41,170 bases of DNA from Ileibacterium valens. GTDB taxonomy: Bacteria; Bacillota_I; Bacilli_A; Erysipelotrichales; Erysipelotrichaceae. The notes under the pieces are model-generated. The model was not told the DNA's origin. It ran no database searches and saw only the letters and a program-made list of their open reading frames with translations. Within the stretch, counting starts at the first letter, position 1; each line of letters begins with the position of its first letter. Below, piece after piece: positions 2,492 through 41,170 of the stretch. The stretch lies in the NCBI RefSeq assembly GCF_001945525.1, contig NZ_MPJW01000078.1:1-41170 (forward strand), read 5' to 3'. The translations under genes and the position numbers were made by a program.

Positions 2492-3487
2492 ATGAAAATG
2501 AACAAAACTGATAAGAACAGAGATTACGATTCAAGTACAGGAAAAAGGGATTTTAGATCTTCAGACAGCAAATCGGATTTACAACAGGATTCAAGAGGAA
2601 TTTTATTCGGGCTTGCGGGAGGTATGTTATGGGCCGTTGATTCAGTAATTTTATCTATGGCTCTAGCTCCCTATGAAATGATCTGGATGGCACCAGTTGT
2701 TGCGACGTTTATTCATGACTCAATTTCCGCCCTGATTTTAATCCTGCTTCAGATCGCAAAAAAGAAGCTCGGGCAACTCCTTCATCTATTAACCATGAAA
2801 GAAGGGCGTTGGCTGATTTTTGCCGGCCTTTTAGGTGGTCCGGTGGGGATGAGTGGATACGTTTTCTGTATTCGCTATGCTGGTCCAGGATTAAGTGCTG
2901 TCTTTTCCTGTTTGTATCCTGCATTTGGTCTTCTTCTTTCATTTCTGCTCTTTCATGAGCGGTTCTCAAAGAGGCAGATTTTGGGACTTATACTTTCTCT
3001 AAGCGGAGTAATTGCCTTATCAGCTGGCAGCGCTCAGAGTGATAATTCGAACTTGCTTATTGGATTGGTGTTTGGTCTGGTTTGTGCCTTAGGCTGGGCT
3101 TTAGAAGGATTGGTTGCCCAGAAGTCAACTGAAAGCCAAATGGTCAGCAGTGATCAGGCATTGACCATCCGTCAGATTACTTCTTCAATTACATTCGGTC
3201 TGATTTTAGTTCCACTTCTTGATGGATGGCCTCTCACATCGCAGATTATAATGAGCCCCGATTTGAAAGTGATCGCTCTTGCCGCAATAGCAGGTACTGC
3301 AAGTTACTTATGTTACTATAAGGCAATTCATCTGATTGGCGCCTCTAAAGCCATGCCGTTAAATATTACTTATTCGGGATGGGCAATTGTCTTTTCTTTG
3401 CTCTTGCTTGGAAGCATTCCAACTTTTTTAGAAATAGCTGCCGCGATTATCATACTAGCTGGCGCTCTGATGTGCTCTTCGAAATAA
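2492..3487 (+). CDS. EamA/DMT-superfamily transporter
   Basis: The 331-residue protein starts with a hydrophilic, charged tail of about 32 residues, followed by about ten hydrophobic spans arranged as two EamA repeats (beginning near GILFGLAGGMLWAVDS and LLIGLVFGLVCALGWALEG). The second repeat ends with a glycine- and alanine-rich helix. This is the drug/metabolite transporter fold, an inner-membrane metabolite exporter or importer with unknown substrate. The ribosome site is weak (AAAGAA), and a 14-codon frame at 2467 lies just upstream in another frame. Host gene ending 218 nt before the tRNA. Confidence 0.82.
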   Translation: MKMNKTDKNRDYDSSTGKRDFRSSDSKSDLQQDSRGILFGLAGGMLWAVDSVILSMALAPYEMIWMAPVVATFIHDSISALILILLQIAKKKLGQLLHLLTMKEGRWLIFAGLLGGPVGMSGYVFCIRYAGPGLSAVFSCLYPAFGLLLSFLLFHERFSKRQILGLILSLSGVIALSAGSAQSDNSNLLIGLVFGLVCALGWALEGLVAQKSTESQMVSSDQALTIRQITSSITFGLILVPLLDGWPLTSQIIMSPDLKVIALAAIAGTASYLCYYKAIHLIGASKAMPLNITYSGWAIVFSLLLLGSIPTFLEIAAAIIILAGALMCSSK

Positions 3488-3657
3488 ATGCTATTCAATA
3501 CATTAACAGTGCCAGAATTTAAAACAGAAAAGGAGCATTTATTCAATAGGTAATGTCTTTGTTTACTCATCGAATGATGGAAACTTCATAGTTTATTCTC
3601 CCAAATAAAGGACAGATGGATAATTAATAAAAAATTCTCTTTTTTTGTTATTTTGGG

Positions 3658-3685
3658 TTGTACTTTCGAATTCTATAAGTATAAT
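3658..3685 (+). promoter_or_regulatory. Promoter of tRNA-Leu
   Basis: A -35 TTGTAC (3658-3663) and a perfect -10 TATAAT (3680-3685) are separated by 16 bp. The mature tRNA begins 20 nt further on, as expected for a stable-RNA promoter. Confidence 0.75.
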
Positions 3686-3705
3686 AGATTAGGCAATGAG
3701 GTACT

Positions 3706-3791
3706 GAGGCCGTGGTGGAATCGGCAGACACGCTACTTTGAGGGGGTAGTGAGCTTAGCTCGTGTGCGTTCAAGTCGCATCGGCCTCACCA
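3706..3791 (+). tRNA. tRNA-Leu (anticodon GAG), prophage attachment target
   Basis: The gene is 86 nt long and CCA is encoded. The acceptor arms GAGGCCG and CGGCCTC pair perfectly. The anticodon arm is CTACT-TTGAGGG-GGTAG (last pair T-G), which places GAG at the anticodon. A long variable arm and the T-loop GTTCAAGTC are present, as in class II leucine tRNAs. It reads CUC/CUU codons. The 3' end (TCACCA) lies inside the phage core sequence, and the integrase reading frame runs antisense through its 3' two thirds. Because the phage core also carries ACCA, the tRNA is intact after insertion. Confidence 0.95.
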
Positions 3792-5259
3792 TTTTTAGCA
3801 CATCCGAACGTGTCAGCTTCTTAGCTGGCACGTTTTCAATATTTAAGGCAATGATCATTTTGGCATCATTGCCTTTTTCTTCGTCAAAAAGATAGACCGA
3901 ATTTACAAGAGAGTTAATAACTGCTTTCTTATAATCAAAGTCATTTATATCTCCGGCTCTAAACTTCTCTAGCCAGAAAACGATATGATCCTTTGTAAAG
4001 GCTGGCTTCTTTAACCTTTCGCGAACAATCTTATCTGCAAGAATTGACTGCTGATCTTCCAGATCTATAAGGCGCTCCTTCGTTTTTGGGGTAAAAATGC
4101 CTTCTTCGATCGCTGCTAAAATATTTTCAATCTTTTTAGTGACTTCTTCATGTTCTGCTTCCAGTGATACCAAAAGACTTTTATTTGAAGCTTCTTCTTC
4201 CAGAAGAGCATACTCTTTCTCAGCAATCTGTTCGATCATGTCATCTGTCAGGACTTCACGACAGATGTAGGCTACTACTGTATCTTCCAGATCTGTCTTT
4301 CTTTCGGTTTCCTTCGAACAAGATCCGGGGCGATTTTTTCTCTTGGAGCATTTGTAATAGTGATATCTCTGACCTGTGCTTGAGGTTCCCTGTTCTCCAA
4401 TCATGGTGGCCCCGCATTCCCCACAAAATAACTTGCCGGATAATAAATATTCTTCCATGGCTTTCTTCCTTCCTCTAGTATACCGATTGGCTTCTATTCT
4501 TTTCTGTACAATTTCAAAAAGTTCTTTACTGATAATGGATGGTAAAGCATCTTCGTGGCGATGATCGCCATAGATATAGACTCCTGTATATCGTTCGTTT
4601 CTTAAAATTCCATGCAATCCATTTCTTTTAAACTCTCCACCTCTGCGGGTCTTGAAGCCTCTGTCATTTAGAAAGTCACAGATTTCAACTTTGCCGTATC
4701 CATCCGCATACATTTCAAAAATTATACGAACGGCTTCAGCTCCAACCGGCTCTAGGACAAAGCGGCCAGCTTCAACTTTATATCCTAATGGAGTTGCACC
4801 ATTACTTTTAGCATGCAGCGCGTTTTCTTCCAGCCCTCTCTTAGCAGACCTGGATAGATTTTCTGAATAATATTGGGCAAATCCCTCCATGATTGATTCC
4901 ATCAGACTGCTCTCTGGAGAGTCATCCAAAGGTAGAGTAGCGGAAATGATCCGTACTCCATTCTTCTTTAATTTACTCTTATAGACCGCTGTATCATACT
5001 TGTCTCTGGAGAACCGGTCGTGAGCATAAATCAGAACTGTGTTAAATTCGCCTTTGGAGCTGTCGCTAATCATATGCTGAAAAGCTGGACGCTGGTCTGT
5101 TCGACCCGAGATTGCACTGTCTGTATATTCACGAATTACTTCCAGATCGTGATCGGCAGCAAAGCGGTGACAAACTCTAAGTTGCGATTCAATACTTTCT
5201 TCTCTCTGGTTGCTGCTAGAGTATCGGGCATAGATTACAGCAGTTTTAACTTCGTTCAT
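3733..5259 (-). CDS. int: Serine recombinase (phage integrase) with host-derived C-terminus
   Basis: The 508-residue enzyme has a resolvase-type catalytic domain (about 5-145; YARYSSSNQ with Ser14 as likely nucleophile), a recombinase DNA-binding domain (about 155-265), a zinc ribbon (Cys279, Cys282, Cys304, Cys314) and a coiled-coil region (about 345-415). It would integrate and excise the prophage at short att sites. The ribosome site AAAGGA is 8 nt before ATG 5259. Residues after Met490 are read from the antisense of tRNA-Leu. In the excised circle the frame would instead continue for 22 codons encoded at 40839-40901 and stop there, giving a 512-residue native protein. It is the last gene of the minus-strand lysogeny operon. 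Confidence 0.93.
   Translation of the reverse strand: MNEVKTAVIYARYSSSNQREESIESQLRVCHRFAADHDLEVIREYTDSAISGRTDQRPAFQHMISDSSKGEFNTVLIYAHDRFSRDKYDTAVYKSKLKKNGVRIISATLPLDDSPESSLMESIMEGFAQYYSENLSRSAKRGLEENALHAKSNGATPLGYKVEAGRFVLEPVGAEAVRIIFEMYADGYGKVEICDFLNDRGFKTRRGGEFKRNGLHGILRNERYTGVYIYGDHRHEDALPSIISKELFEIVQKRIEANRYTRGRKKAMEEYLLSGKLFCGECGATMIGEQGTSSTGQRYHYYKCSKRKNRPGSCSKETERKTDLEDTVVAYICREVLTDDMIEQIAEKEYALLEEEASNKSLLVSLEAEHEEVTKKIENILAAIEEGIFTPKTKERLIDLEDQQSILADKIVRERLKKPAFTKDHIVFWLEKFRAGDINDFDYKKAVINSLVNSVYLFDEEKGNDAKMIIALNIENVPAKKLTRSDVLKMVRPMRLERTRAKLTTPSK
3786..3795. other. attL core (left prophage boundary)
   Basis: The sequence TCACCATTTT at the 3' end of the tRNA gene recurs exactly at 40902-40911 and the match stops on both sides (C versus T before, T versus G after). 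It bounds a 37,116-bp element with an integrase gene at this end. In the reconstructed attP the core is centred in TGGT-TC-ACCA, which suggests TC as the crossover dinucleotide. Confidence rests on the coherence of this reconstruction, not on a long repeat. Confidence 0.78.
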
Positions 5260-6603: not shown

Positions 6604-7338
6604 TTATATCTCTGCCTTTCCGATTACTTTTCCATAACATCTAATATCGGAAAAATCTGTCAGCGGCACATCTTCGTATTCAGGGTTCAAAGAATGCAAG
6701 GTGTTGCCGTTTTTCTCTTTAATGTAGATTTCTCCATCAACACACCAGATTCCGATTTCTCCATCTTCAATGTCATCTTGAGATTTAACAAGCACAAAAT
6801 CTCCGTCTTTGAATTCGGGTTCCATCGAGCGACCGTCAACTTGTAAAACAAAATCAGCTTTTCGCGCGTCTCTTGAATCTCGAATTCGAATGATTCCATC
6901 TAGATCTAGCGCACCATTACCAGCACCAGCTGATGGCCGTCCGTAATAATAGCGCTTTTCGATCATTGGGATTGGATAGGCCTCTTGGTCTGAATCACTT
7001 TCCAGGAAGTCGATGGCAACATCGAGAATTTCCATAACGACTCTTTGCAATCTGGGATTTACCAGCCGAAATTTTCTAATTAGTTGTTCTTCTTCGTCGG
7101 AGTTGAACATCAAATTCGGAGATAAATGATTTTTTTCTTCATCCATACCGACTAAATAATCGACAGATACATTTAGAGCCTTTGCAAAATTCAAAATAAC
7201 TTCGATCTTTGGTGTTCTAGATCCTTGTTCATAAGCTTTGTAGGTATCGAACGGGATTCCCATATATTCGGCAAATTCTTTTTTGGTGAACCCTCGTTCA
7301 ATTCTTTGTTCTTTTAAATTTTCCGCAAAACTTTTCAT
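6604..7338 (-). CDS. CI/LexA-like prophage repressor with S24 autoprotease
   Basis: An N-terminal HTH_XRE domain (about 8-65; RIERGFTKKEFAEYMG) is followed by a linker and a C-terminal S24 peptidase domain (about 135-244) with Ser171 (GRSMEP) and Lys207 (YIK) as likely catalytic dyad and Ala137-Gly138 as likely self-cleavage bond. It would hold the prophage silent and be inactivated by RecA-stimulated autocleavage after DNA damage. I use ATG 7338 rather than the in-frame ATG 7368, because the -10 box TATAAT overlaps that upstream ATG, so transcripts should begin after it. It is divergent from the Cro-like gene, with operators between. 244 residues. Confidence 0.92.
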   Translation of the reverse strand: MKSFAENLKEQRIERGFTKKEFAEYMGIPFDTYKAYEQGSRTPKIEVILNFAKALNVSVDYLVGMDEEKNHLSPNLMFNSDEEEQLIRKFRLVNPRLQRVVMEILDVAIDFLESDSDQEAYPIPMIEKRYYYGRPSAGAGNGALDLDGIIRIRDSRDARKADFVLQVDGRSMEPEFKDGDFVLVKSQDDIEDGEIGIWCVDGEIYIKEKNGNTLHSLNPEYEDVPLTDFSDIRCYGKVIGKAEI

Positions 7339-7366
7339 CTCCTTTTTTATCCTTTCTATCGTTTCC

Positions 7367-7419
7367 ATTATATACGAAACGAACGAAACTTAAGTCCGTA
7401 ATGGGTACAAAATGGGTAT
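7367..7419 (-). promoter_or_regulatory. Repressor promoter with operators O1 and O2
   Basis: The minus-strand -10 is TATAAT (7372-7367) with only a weak -35 (ACTTAA or GACTTA). Operators O1 GTCCGTAATGGGTAC (7394-7408) and O2 GTACAAAATGGGTAT (7405-7419) overlap by four bases and cover the -35 region, implying autoregulation by CI and/or repression by the Cro-like protein. Confidence 0.75.
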
Positions 7420-21226: not shown

Positions 21227-21314
21227 CGCTGGATTGACTGAGGGCTTAAGGTGTCCGCCTTGAAAGCGGAAGATCTACACAGATCCGAAGGTTCGAATCC
21301 TTCATCCAGCGCCA
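21227..21314 (+). tRNA. Phage tRNA-Ser (anticodon TGA)
   Basis: 88 nt with encoded CCA. Acceptor arms CGCTGGA/TCCAGCG; anticodon arm TCCGC-CTTGAAA-GCGGA with TGA at the anticodon; a long variable arm (GATCTACACAGATC) and T-loop GGTTCGAATCC as in class II serine tRNAs. Confidence 0.92.
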
Positions 21315-21317
21315 TTT

Positions 21318-21405
21318 GCAAAGTTGGCTGAGCGGACGAAAGCAACCGTTTGCTAAACGGTCGATCCATAAGGATCCACAGGTTCGAATTCTGTACTTTG
21401 CGCCA
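21318..21405 (+). tRNA. Phage tRNA-Ser (anticodon GCT)
   Basis: 88 nt with encoded CCA, 3 nt after the first tRNA. Acceptor arms GCAAAGT/ACTTTGC; anticodon arm ACCGT-TTGCTAA-ACGGT giving GCT; long variable arm (GATCCATAAGGATC). With its neighbour it supplies UCN (UGA) and AGY (GCU) serine decoding. Confidence 0.92.
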
Positions 21406-40001: not shown

Positions 40002-40029
40002 GGGGCTCCGATTTGGAGTCCCGTTTTTT
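40002..40029. terminator. Bidirectional terminator between lysin and HicAB
   Basis: GGGGCTCC (40002-40009) and GGAGTCCC (40015-40022) pair over 8 bp (one G-T); TTTTTT follows on the plus strand and an A run on the left gives T on the minus strand. It serves both convergent units, overlapping the HicB stop. Confidence 0.8.
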
Positions 40030-40423
40030 AGTTGGATAAGCCGATTTCATGCTTTAACGCTTCCTGAAGCACTTTAGAAAACTTAATTCTTTTTGCTTTG
40101 CAAGTGTCATCTAACCACTTTGGAATGCTTAAAGTTTTCTTTACCGGTTTTTCAAAATTCTTTTTGATGTAGTCATCTACGTCAAATGAAACAAGTACCG
40201 GAAAGCTTCCGTCATCAGGTTTAATATCTTCGATTTTAGAGGGTTCCGGAACCGCTTCAGAATGAAGTTTTGCCCAGTGGAATTCACCGGCAAGAAGATC
40301 AACGGCCATCGCCATGGCATCGTCGTAGGAATTGCCAAAAGTGGCCAGATCATTTAAGTCCGGAAAAACGACCGAATAAGATCCATTTTCTTTAAAGAAT
40401 AGCGCAGGATAATTAATATACAT
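40028..40423 (-). CDS. hicB: HicB-type antitoxin
   Basis: 131 residues. N-terminal degenerate RNase-H-like HicB fold (about 1-60: YINYPALFFKENGSYSVVFP, DLNDLATFGNSYDDAMAMAV) and a C-terminal RHH-like DNA-binding tail (KTLSIPKWLDDTCKAKRIKF). It should bind and neutralise HicA and repress the operon. The start ATG 40423 has only a weak site. Convergent with the endolysin gene. Confidence 0.9.
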   Translation of the reverse strand: MYINYPALFFKENGSYSVVFPDLNDLATFGNSYDDAMAMAVDLLAGEFHWAKLHSEAVPEPSKIEDIKPDDGSFPVLVSFDVDDYIKKNFEKPVKKTLSIPKWLDDTCKAKRIKFSKVLQEALKHEIGLSN

Positions 40424-40704: not shown

Positions 40705-40901
40705 GTTTTGGGTGGTTGAAGATTAATAGAAGGTATCGTTATTCCTTAAGAAGAAAAAATTGGTGGGCAAAGGTGCTTTAACCGAAATAAAAAGCCTGGG
40801 GGATTATCCCTCAGGTAATTTTTTTGGTTAAAACTGTCAAATGCAGAAAATAACGAGATATTTTCGAATGAGGATATCGTTCGGCTTCTGTTTGAAGTGG
40901 T
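40705..40901 (-). other. Right-end segment: separated int 3' tail and spacer
   Basis: No independent gene is seen. Positions 40901 down to 40840 read, on the minus strand and in the integrase frame after circularisation, as 22 codons (start VNHFKQKPNDILIRKY), with TGA at 40839-40837. The bases 40705-40794 show nothing beyond AT-rich spacer. Confidence 0.6.
40795..40825. terminator. Stranded integrase terminator
   Basis: CCTGGGGG (40795-40802) and CCCTCAGG (40808-40815) form an 8-bp stem with one G-T; TTTTTTT follows on the plus side and CTTTTT on the minus side. In the excised circle it lies 12 nt beyond the native integrase stop, and so would end int transcription. Confidence 0.78.
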
Positions 40902-40911
40902 TCACCATTTT
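40902..40911. other. attR core (right prophage boundary)
   Basis: TCACCATTTT matches the attL core exactly. Phage sequence TTTGAAGTGG-T precedes it and host sequence GTAAATTC follows. In attP the distal 7-mers CGTTCGG (40878-40884) and CCGAACG (3804-3810) are inverted copies 17 and 16 bp from the central TC, a spacing fitting a serine-integrase attP of about 50 bp. Confidence 0.76.
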
Positions 40912-40958
40912 GTAAATTCAAGGGGCTGTTAAATTTCTGACAGTCCAAAAATAAAAAG

Positions 40959-40995
40959 AGGCACCTGATCCGTAATGGATGAGGTGCCTTTTTTG
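40959..40995 (+). terminator. Host terminator, probably of tRNA-Leu
   Basis: AGGCACCT (40959-40966) and AGGTGCCT (40982-40989), with inner ATCC/GGAT, form a strong hairpin followed by TTTTTT. In the uninfected chromosome it would lie about 55 nt after the tRNA-Leu, so it was separated from its gene by the prophage. Confidence 0.7.
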
Positions 40996-41002
40996 GTAAA
41001 AT

Positions 41003-41170
41003 ATGTTCATGATCAATAAACAAAATTACCAAACACACTATAACTCGATTCAGGGCCGTTTGCCACTGCTCCATTCTCTCTTCCCTCATATTGAGATGGA
41101 TTCTGTCTTCACTACTGTCAGTTCCTTTGTCGATGATTATCTCGACCTTGCCCTTTATCCTTCTTTTGCC
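41003..41170 (+). CDS. Partial unidentified host gene (runs off the window)
   Basis: Open from ATG 41003 (or 41009) to the window end, 56 codons, beginning MFMINKQNYQTHYNSIQGRL and continuing with VFTTVSSFVDDYLDLALYPS. No ribosome site is visible. The short hydrophilic start resembles some transposase N-termini, but this is only an impression. The complete gene is needed for identification. Confidence 0.45.
   Translation, partial: MFMINKQNYQTHYNSIQGRLPLLHSLFPHIEMDSVFTTVSSFVDDYLDLALYPSFA

Follow-up and report, generated by a model that had tools for sequence, protein, structure and literature searches.

At one end of the window, by which is meant the whole 41,170-nucleotide stretch of DNA analysed, the integrase gene of a prophage runs into a tRNA gene lying on the opposite strand. 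The arrangement raises the question of which C-terminus the enzyme bears before integration, and whether the end that is lost matters. The window is a complete contig of its genome and is also found as a contig in the IMG/VR viral collection. Our analysis makes it very probable that it holds a prophage with an attP of ~50 bp in the last codons of its own int gene, an attB formed by the CCA at the 3′ end of tRNA-Leu, and a tail encoded only by the phage form, of a kind that is under selection in relatives.

Two forms of the integrase and the attachment sites

In its prophage form, int (3733..5259, minus strand) encodes a large serine recombinase of 508 aa, the last 18 residues of which are read from antisense tRNA-Leu and the att core. 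The Pfam domains follow the order Resolvase (7–147), Recombinase (173–257) and Zn_ribbon_recom (272–332), all above the curated cut-offs, and the protein matches the integrase family phrog_95 with an E value of 8e-115. Residues Y10, R12, S14, D81, R82 and R85 are invariant among 34 aligned sequences, a pattern identical to that of the catalytic residues given for TP901-1 in PMC8637289. By its domains and catalytic residues, the protein is classified as a phage serine integrase of the large serine recombinase family.

The attB target, tRNA-Leu (GAG), was located by ARAGORN at 3706..3791 on the plus strand, with its 3′ CCA end inside the core; it was absent from the Rfam matches at the gathering threshold. 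Ten identical bases, TCACCATTTT, form the core at the int end (3786..3795) and again at the far end (40902..40911), and the int reading frame stays open through them. The two forms of the enzyme have 490 residues in common. In the prophage these are followed by the 18-residue VRPMRLERTRAKLTTPSK from antisense tRNA, giving 508, and after rejoining by the 22-residue VNHFKQKPNDILIRKYLVIFCI, giving 512. The severed phage-only end lies 3′ of the far core, at 40837..40901 on the minus strand, and terminates with TGA at 40839-40837, adding ...NHFKQKPNDILIRKYLVIFCI in the phage form. Both frames could be reconstructed from the window, in agreement with the initial annotation, which had proposed 512 residues for the circular phage and 508 for the lysogen. 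Its description of the gene as "split" by integration is too strong because the C-terminus is indeed exchanged but every conserved domain remains in the prophage gene. A perfect bidirectional terminator had also been described just past the phage-form stop. A hairpin is present there (40794..40816); by terminator scan and folding it is better formed on the plus strand, the only strand on which the scan detects it, and on the int strand the stem contains an A.C mismatch (MFE −14.3 kcal/mol, z −2.2), so "perfect" does not apply. No terminator was found by a scan of 3500–3900, at the prophage int end, where the initial annotation had proposed that read-through might yield antisense tRNA-Leu RNA.

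Is the 10-bp repeat an att pair, or a chance match with the true right end of the prophage elsewhere, at or past a repeated element that starts at ~40920? Beyond the far core, just 8 bases of leftover host DNA downstream of tRNA-Leu (40912..40919) precede this element, which has 39 other genomic copies at 98–100% identity, and the right host flank is for this reason of little weight alone. An empty attB was not found in the 60 genomes searched, nor did searches turn up the phage as a free genome or a second viral contig carrying its left arm and core. However, joining these two cores brings together GTTCG on the int strand at 3805..3809, inside the int body, and CGAAC at 40879..40883, one arm from each prophage end, to give GTTCG-N37-CGAAC with a span of exactly 47. 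This is the motif of the family at the spacing of the family. A GTTCG/CGAAC motif with a span of 43–56 arose in 4/20000 random joins, and the prophage form of the window has none. The 7-base symmetric run about the core was reached by 868/20000 random joins and is by itself weak evidence for an att pair; the family motif and its spacing are strong evidence. Joining also leaves int open, and bases 40912–40919 are similar to CACCATTTGAAAATTC, found 3′ of tRNA-Leu in a relative (L044). The pair thus goes beyond a chance match, a reading we regard as very improbable, and the attP junction predicted for the phage is GTTCGGATGTGCTAAAAATGGTGAACCACTTCAAACAGAAGCCGAAC.

Eight bases from attR, the start of the repeated element (40920–41170) contains an ORF and a stretch resembling a hairpin, and it closes the contig. 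The Pfam scan of an ORF at 40811–41089 assigned it to no family.

The same exchange in related integrases

The integrase nearest to that of the window is 55% identical to it. Among 95 distinct related loci, 32 carry the attP palindrome across the 3′ end of int, mostly with a span of 47, compared with 1 of 342 control int stretches. Many of the 63 loci without the strict motif are prophage or truncated forms, and some are distant or have variant arms. The centre of the motif is CTCCACCA or a close variant in most motif-bearing relatives and resembles the 3′ end of a tRNA.

Phage and prophage forms of relatives were compared in 14 pairs. In six of these, with bodies 94%–100% identical and, for two of them, a phage genome that has been sequenced, the break falls within int, as predicted; the rest are less similar or incomplete. 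In the pair formed by the induced and sequenced Faecalibacterium phage Lelie and the prophage FP_Toutatis, Lelie up to position 3471 corresponds to one prophage end and 3463–5199 to the other, leaving a 9-bp core inside int, and a further prophage (L076) breaks at the identical base. After the common SGMRLV, the phage tail reads HLAHQQANYSLYAASGYFSLVEHQFSARLWRTA and the prophage tail RVARIELTAS. The other pairs are Pioen/Taranis (96.4% identity), L132/L131 (100%), L135/L134 (99.9%), L162/L163 (99.9%) and L141/L143 (96.8%); for L134 and L143, the int frame continues to the end of the sequence stretch compared. The FP_Toutatis prophage tail is antisense-tRNA-like; ARAGORN and Rfam found no tRNA, and a weak tmRNA match fell below the gathering threshold. 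The passages of the Lelie and Pioen paper on integration describe intergenic sites and phiC31-like integrases, with no mention in them of an overlap between int and attP. The rejoined frame, the span-47 motif and these pairs agree with the original proposal that int crosses attP and has its C-terminus replaced on integration, and for the int of the window the exchange of tails is almost certain.

A tRNA or tmRNA gene was found at the far end of 6 of 9 prophages examined, with the matching arm following the 3′ end of the RNA gene. The targets are tRNA-Trp (L016, L013), tRNA-Ala (L019), tRNA-Thr (L023) and tmRNA (L028, L022). In L024, a tmRNA lies instead at the int end, antisense to int, as tRNA-Leu does in the window, and for L015 and L017, the far-end stretches examined contained no tRNA. 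Rejoining L016, L013, L019, L023, L028 and L022 gave in-frame tails of 24, 33, 24, 20, 21 and 24 residues, respectively, in place of prophage tails of 25, 11, 3, 19, 2 and 10; the prophage tail is absent altogether in L099. The cores of these six were chosen by eye, automatic core finding having been wrong for L016 and L023. The span was 47 in five of the six, and L028, with the right arm TGAAC, has no strict motif. Judged from these sequences, the design that combines the int end with attP is common to a group of large serine integrases at the 3′ ends of tRNA and tmRNA genes and is found in many phages of the gut. The known attB sites of large serine integrases are described as lying more commonly in coding genes, and a 2014 paper states that tRNA and tmRNA genes were not known as serine integrase targets.

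Some loci showed further features. The serine integrase of L024 (848–1192) extends ~78 bases into the antisense tmRNA, and L025 (1–57), from another genus, has nearly the same sequence and terminates at a contig edge. In L019 (G039), the tRNA-Ala with the matching arm is just ~8.9 kb from the integrase end, which suggests a small satellite-like element.

Selection and structure of the phage-only tail

To what extent is the severed tail conserved as protein? A codon table of 17 phage-form integrases shows att codons that are mostly frozen, including their third positions, with TCG GAT ATT invariant. Past the right arm, FFxKHxFGFV is retained while third positions vary, and F, K, F and G are invariant in all 17. 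The entropies of the first, second and third positions of tail codons are 8.3, 4.7 and 15.8, those of the first and second being below all 18 blocks of the body. Substitutions were counted in 8 hand-picked pairs, 7 with the motif and L135/L077. The body gave a pS of 0.729 and a pN/pS of 0.18, the att codons a pS of 0.065 (7 motif-bearing pairs), and the tail a pS of 0.548 and a pN of 0.135, a ratio of 0.25 (8 pairs). Selection on the tail is uneven, with a pN of 0.29 versus a pS of 0.50 in L127/L130 and 0.25 versus 0.40 in L097/L096. An earlier estimate of 0.446, over the last 25 codons of 16 pairs, had pooled the att codons with the tail and used a pair set different from the 8. These patterns indicate that the att codons are under selection at the DNA level as a recombination site, and the tail that follows them in the relatives is under purifying selection at the protein level. 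Because the att codons are synonymously frozen, part of the apparent conservation of the tail, for instance the Pro-Asn pair, would be at the DNA level.

It was also considered whether the tail is retained as a third GTTCG-type DNA site, given the inverted repeats in L082 and L103. In the 17-sequence group, the freedom of third codon positions led us to reject this reading; it may hold for Pioen. In that phage (L082, ~3980–4102), the attP arm occurs a third time, as an inverted repeat with the right arm, inside the phage-only tail, and this copy is a possible additional binding site.

The initial annotation had pointed to relatives as the place to look for the window's own tail, and the likeness found is moderate only: DILIRKYLVIFCI, which follows Pro-Asn, fits the profile of the relatives to a degree equalled by 409 of 39839 random 13-mers (~1%) and 789 of 20000 shuffles (~4%).

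Homology of int stops near residue 474. Solved serine integrases align to residues 1–475 only of the predicted model of a relative (L103), and a fold search with the whole model lists no match beyond. In this one model, a weak linker leads to the phage tail, a predicted β-hairpin past the end of the known integrase structures with strands at 498–501 and 504–511 (block pLDDT 81 and 74); its contacts are not seen in the model. In the model of the window's prophage form, residues 485–508 have a pLDDT below 50.

Possible roles of the tail and known parallels

Integration at tRNA-Leu would leave the tRNA intact and strip the phage tail (22 codons here) from int, which in the prophage would gain an arbitrary, host-encoded ending; excision would restore the phage tail. 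Since prophage tails are arbitrary, the body of the enzyme is presumably functional without the phage tail, at least in excision, and the selection on the phage tail in relatives suggests that this tail does something before or during integration. The phage tail, rather than the antisense-tRNA tail, is thus probably the meaningful one, and its action is probably confined to the phage form, the enzyme that unintegrated phage DNA encodes. Of its possible roles, the one that we rank as most likely, although tentatively, is to promote recombination of attP with attB or to hinder the reverse reaction. In this way the state of integration would be written into the integrase itself. The initial annotation had suggested that the tail could tune activity or stability. 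The arbitrary prophage tails of relatives (2–25 residues in the six mapped cases and none in L099) count against such fine tuning by the prophage tail, and because of them the antisense-tRNA tail is probably incidental. A more specific possibility, which we consider rather unlikely, is a direction switch, built into this group of tRNA/tmRNA-targeting integrases, in which the phage-only hairpin favours integration and recombination deletes it from the gene. If so, enzyme made by the prophage would be set for excision and would depend less, or not at all, on a separate directionality factor.

The tail might also have no role, attP having been placed, for compaction, in a stretch of int that can be dispensed with, and with both tails as functionless by-products. 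The position of the tails past the conserved domains is consistent with this, as are the frozen att codons and the arbitrary prophage tails of an enzyme that presumably must still excise. The variation of third positions and not of first and second positions past the right arm, and the pN/pS of the tail, would be unexpected for a functionless tail, and we consider compaction alone unlikely, albeit the strongest rival to a role in integration. A somewhat weaker candidate, also unlikely, is that the phage tail signals degradation of the enzyme, by analogy with the repressor of mycobacteriophage BPs, so that enzyme made from free phage would be short-lived and the signal lost on integration. The mean hydropathy of the window's phage tail (+1.68, as against −1.42 for the prophage tail) is suggestive at most. 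The phage tails of relatives span −0.37 to +1.39 (9 typed tails). The BPs repressor has an ssrA-like tag, and the BPs integrase is also described as having a C-terminal proteolysis signal (PMC4557955); the BPs protein is, however, of a different class. Moreover, the conserved FFxKHxFGFV is internal, the final residues are variable and in many cases acidic or polar, and an ordered hairpin, as modelled, is atypical of a C-terminal tag. A role in promoting integration or hindering its reversal remains the preferred reading.

In the integrase of Myxococcus phage Mx8, attP likewise lies within int, and integration creates a new 3′ end (intP to intR) with the loss of 112 residues. By comparison, ~18–33 residues are exchanged and all domains kept in the window and its relatives. 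The Mx8 enzyme is of the tyrosine class, as handled in Islander, and is unrelated in fold and chemistry to the serine recombinase of the window, which shares with it the C-terminal change brought about by attP within int. The likeness is one of way of working, not of kinship. Integration of Mx8 reportedly leaves the enzyme active and alters its specificity (PMC6070905), and Islander lists Mx8 and SSV among the integrases that extend across attP. The archaeal suicidal integrases of SSV, pTN3 and pT26-2 also have attP in the integrase gene but are tyrosine recombinases that are split into fragments, thought to be inactive (PMC8371274). In BPs immunity, too, attP lies in a regulatory gene and a phage-only C-terminal tail is lost on integration; there it is the repressor gene that is altered, its tail serves as a degradation tag and the prophage form is just shorter. 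In the window, attP lies in int, and a CI-like repressor is encoded separately at 6604–7368.

Integrases of the phiC31/TP901-1/Bxb1 type belong to the same family as that of the window and have the same domain order and an attP of ~50 bp with a short core (50 bp for the minimal attP of A118), a form shared by the window's GTTCG-N37-CGAAC; their solved structures stop where the extra tail of the window's group starts. Integrases that cross attP (Mx8, SSV, archaeal) and the loss of a phage-only tail (BPs repressor) are thus already known. Different here are the serine class, the tRNA and tmRNA targets, the arbitrary replacement tail and the selection on the tail that is lost. No description of a serine integrase with attP inside int was found in the parts of the literature covered by our search.

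What gives serine integrases their directionality is a central problem in recombination and in genome engineering. Two DNA states that encode two versions of one enzyme, with the phage-only part selected, would allow a direct test of C-terminal control of direction or stability. The group also adds tRNA and tmRNA genes to the targets of serine integrases, and GTTCG-N37-CGAAC over a CCA core may serve as a motif for mapping the ends of prophages that are hard to delimit. As a caution, integrases annotated from such prophages bear host-encoded C-termini.

Two other features lie within the prophage. Tandem tRNA-Ser genes with TGA and GCT anticodons are located at 21228–21405, between a minor head gene and the terminase, and a HicB-like antitoxin gene (40028–40423) is close to the right end.
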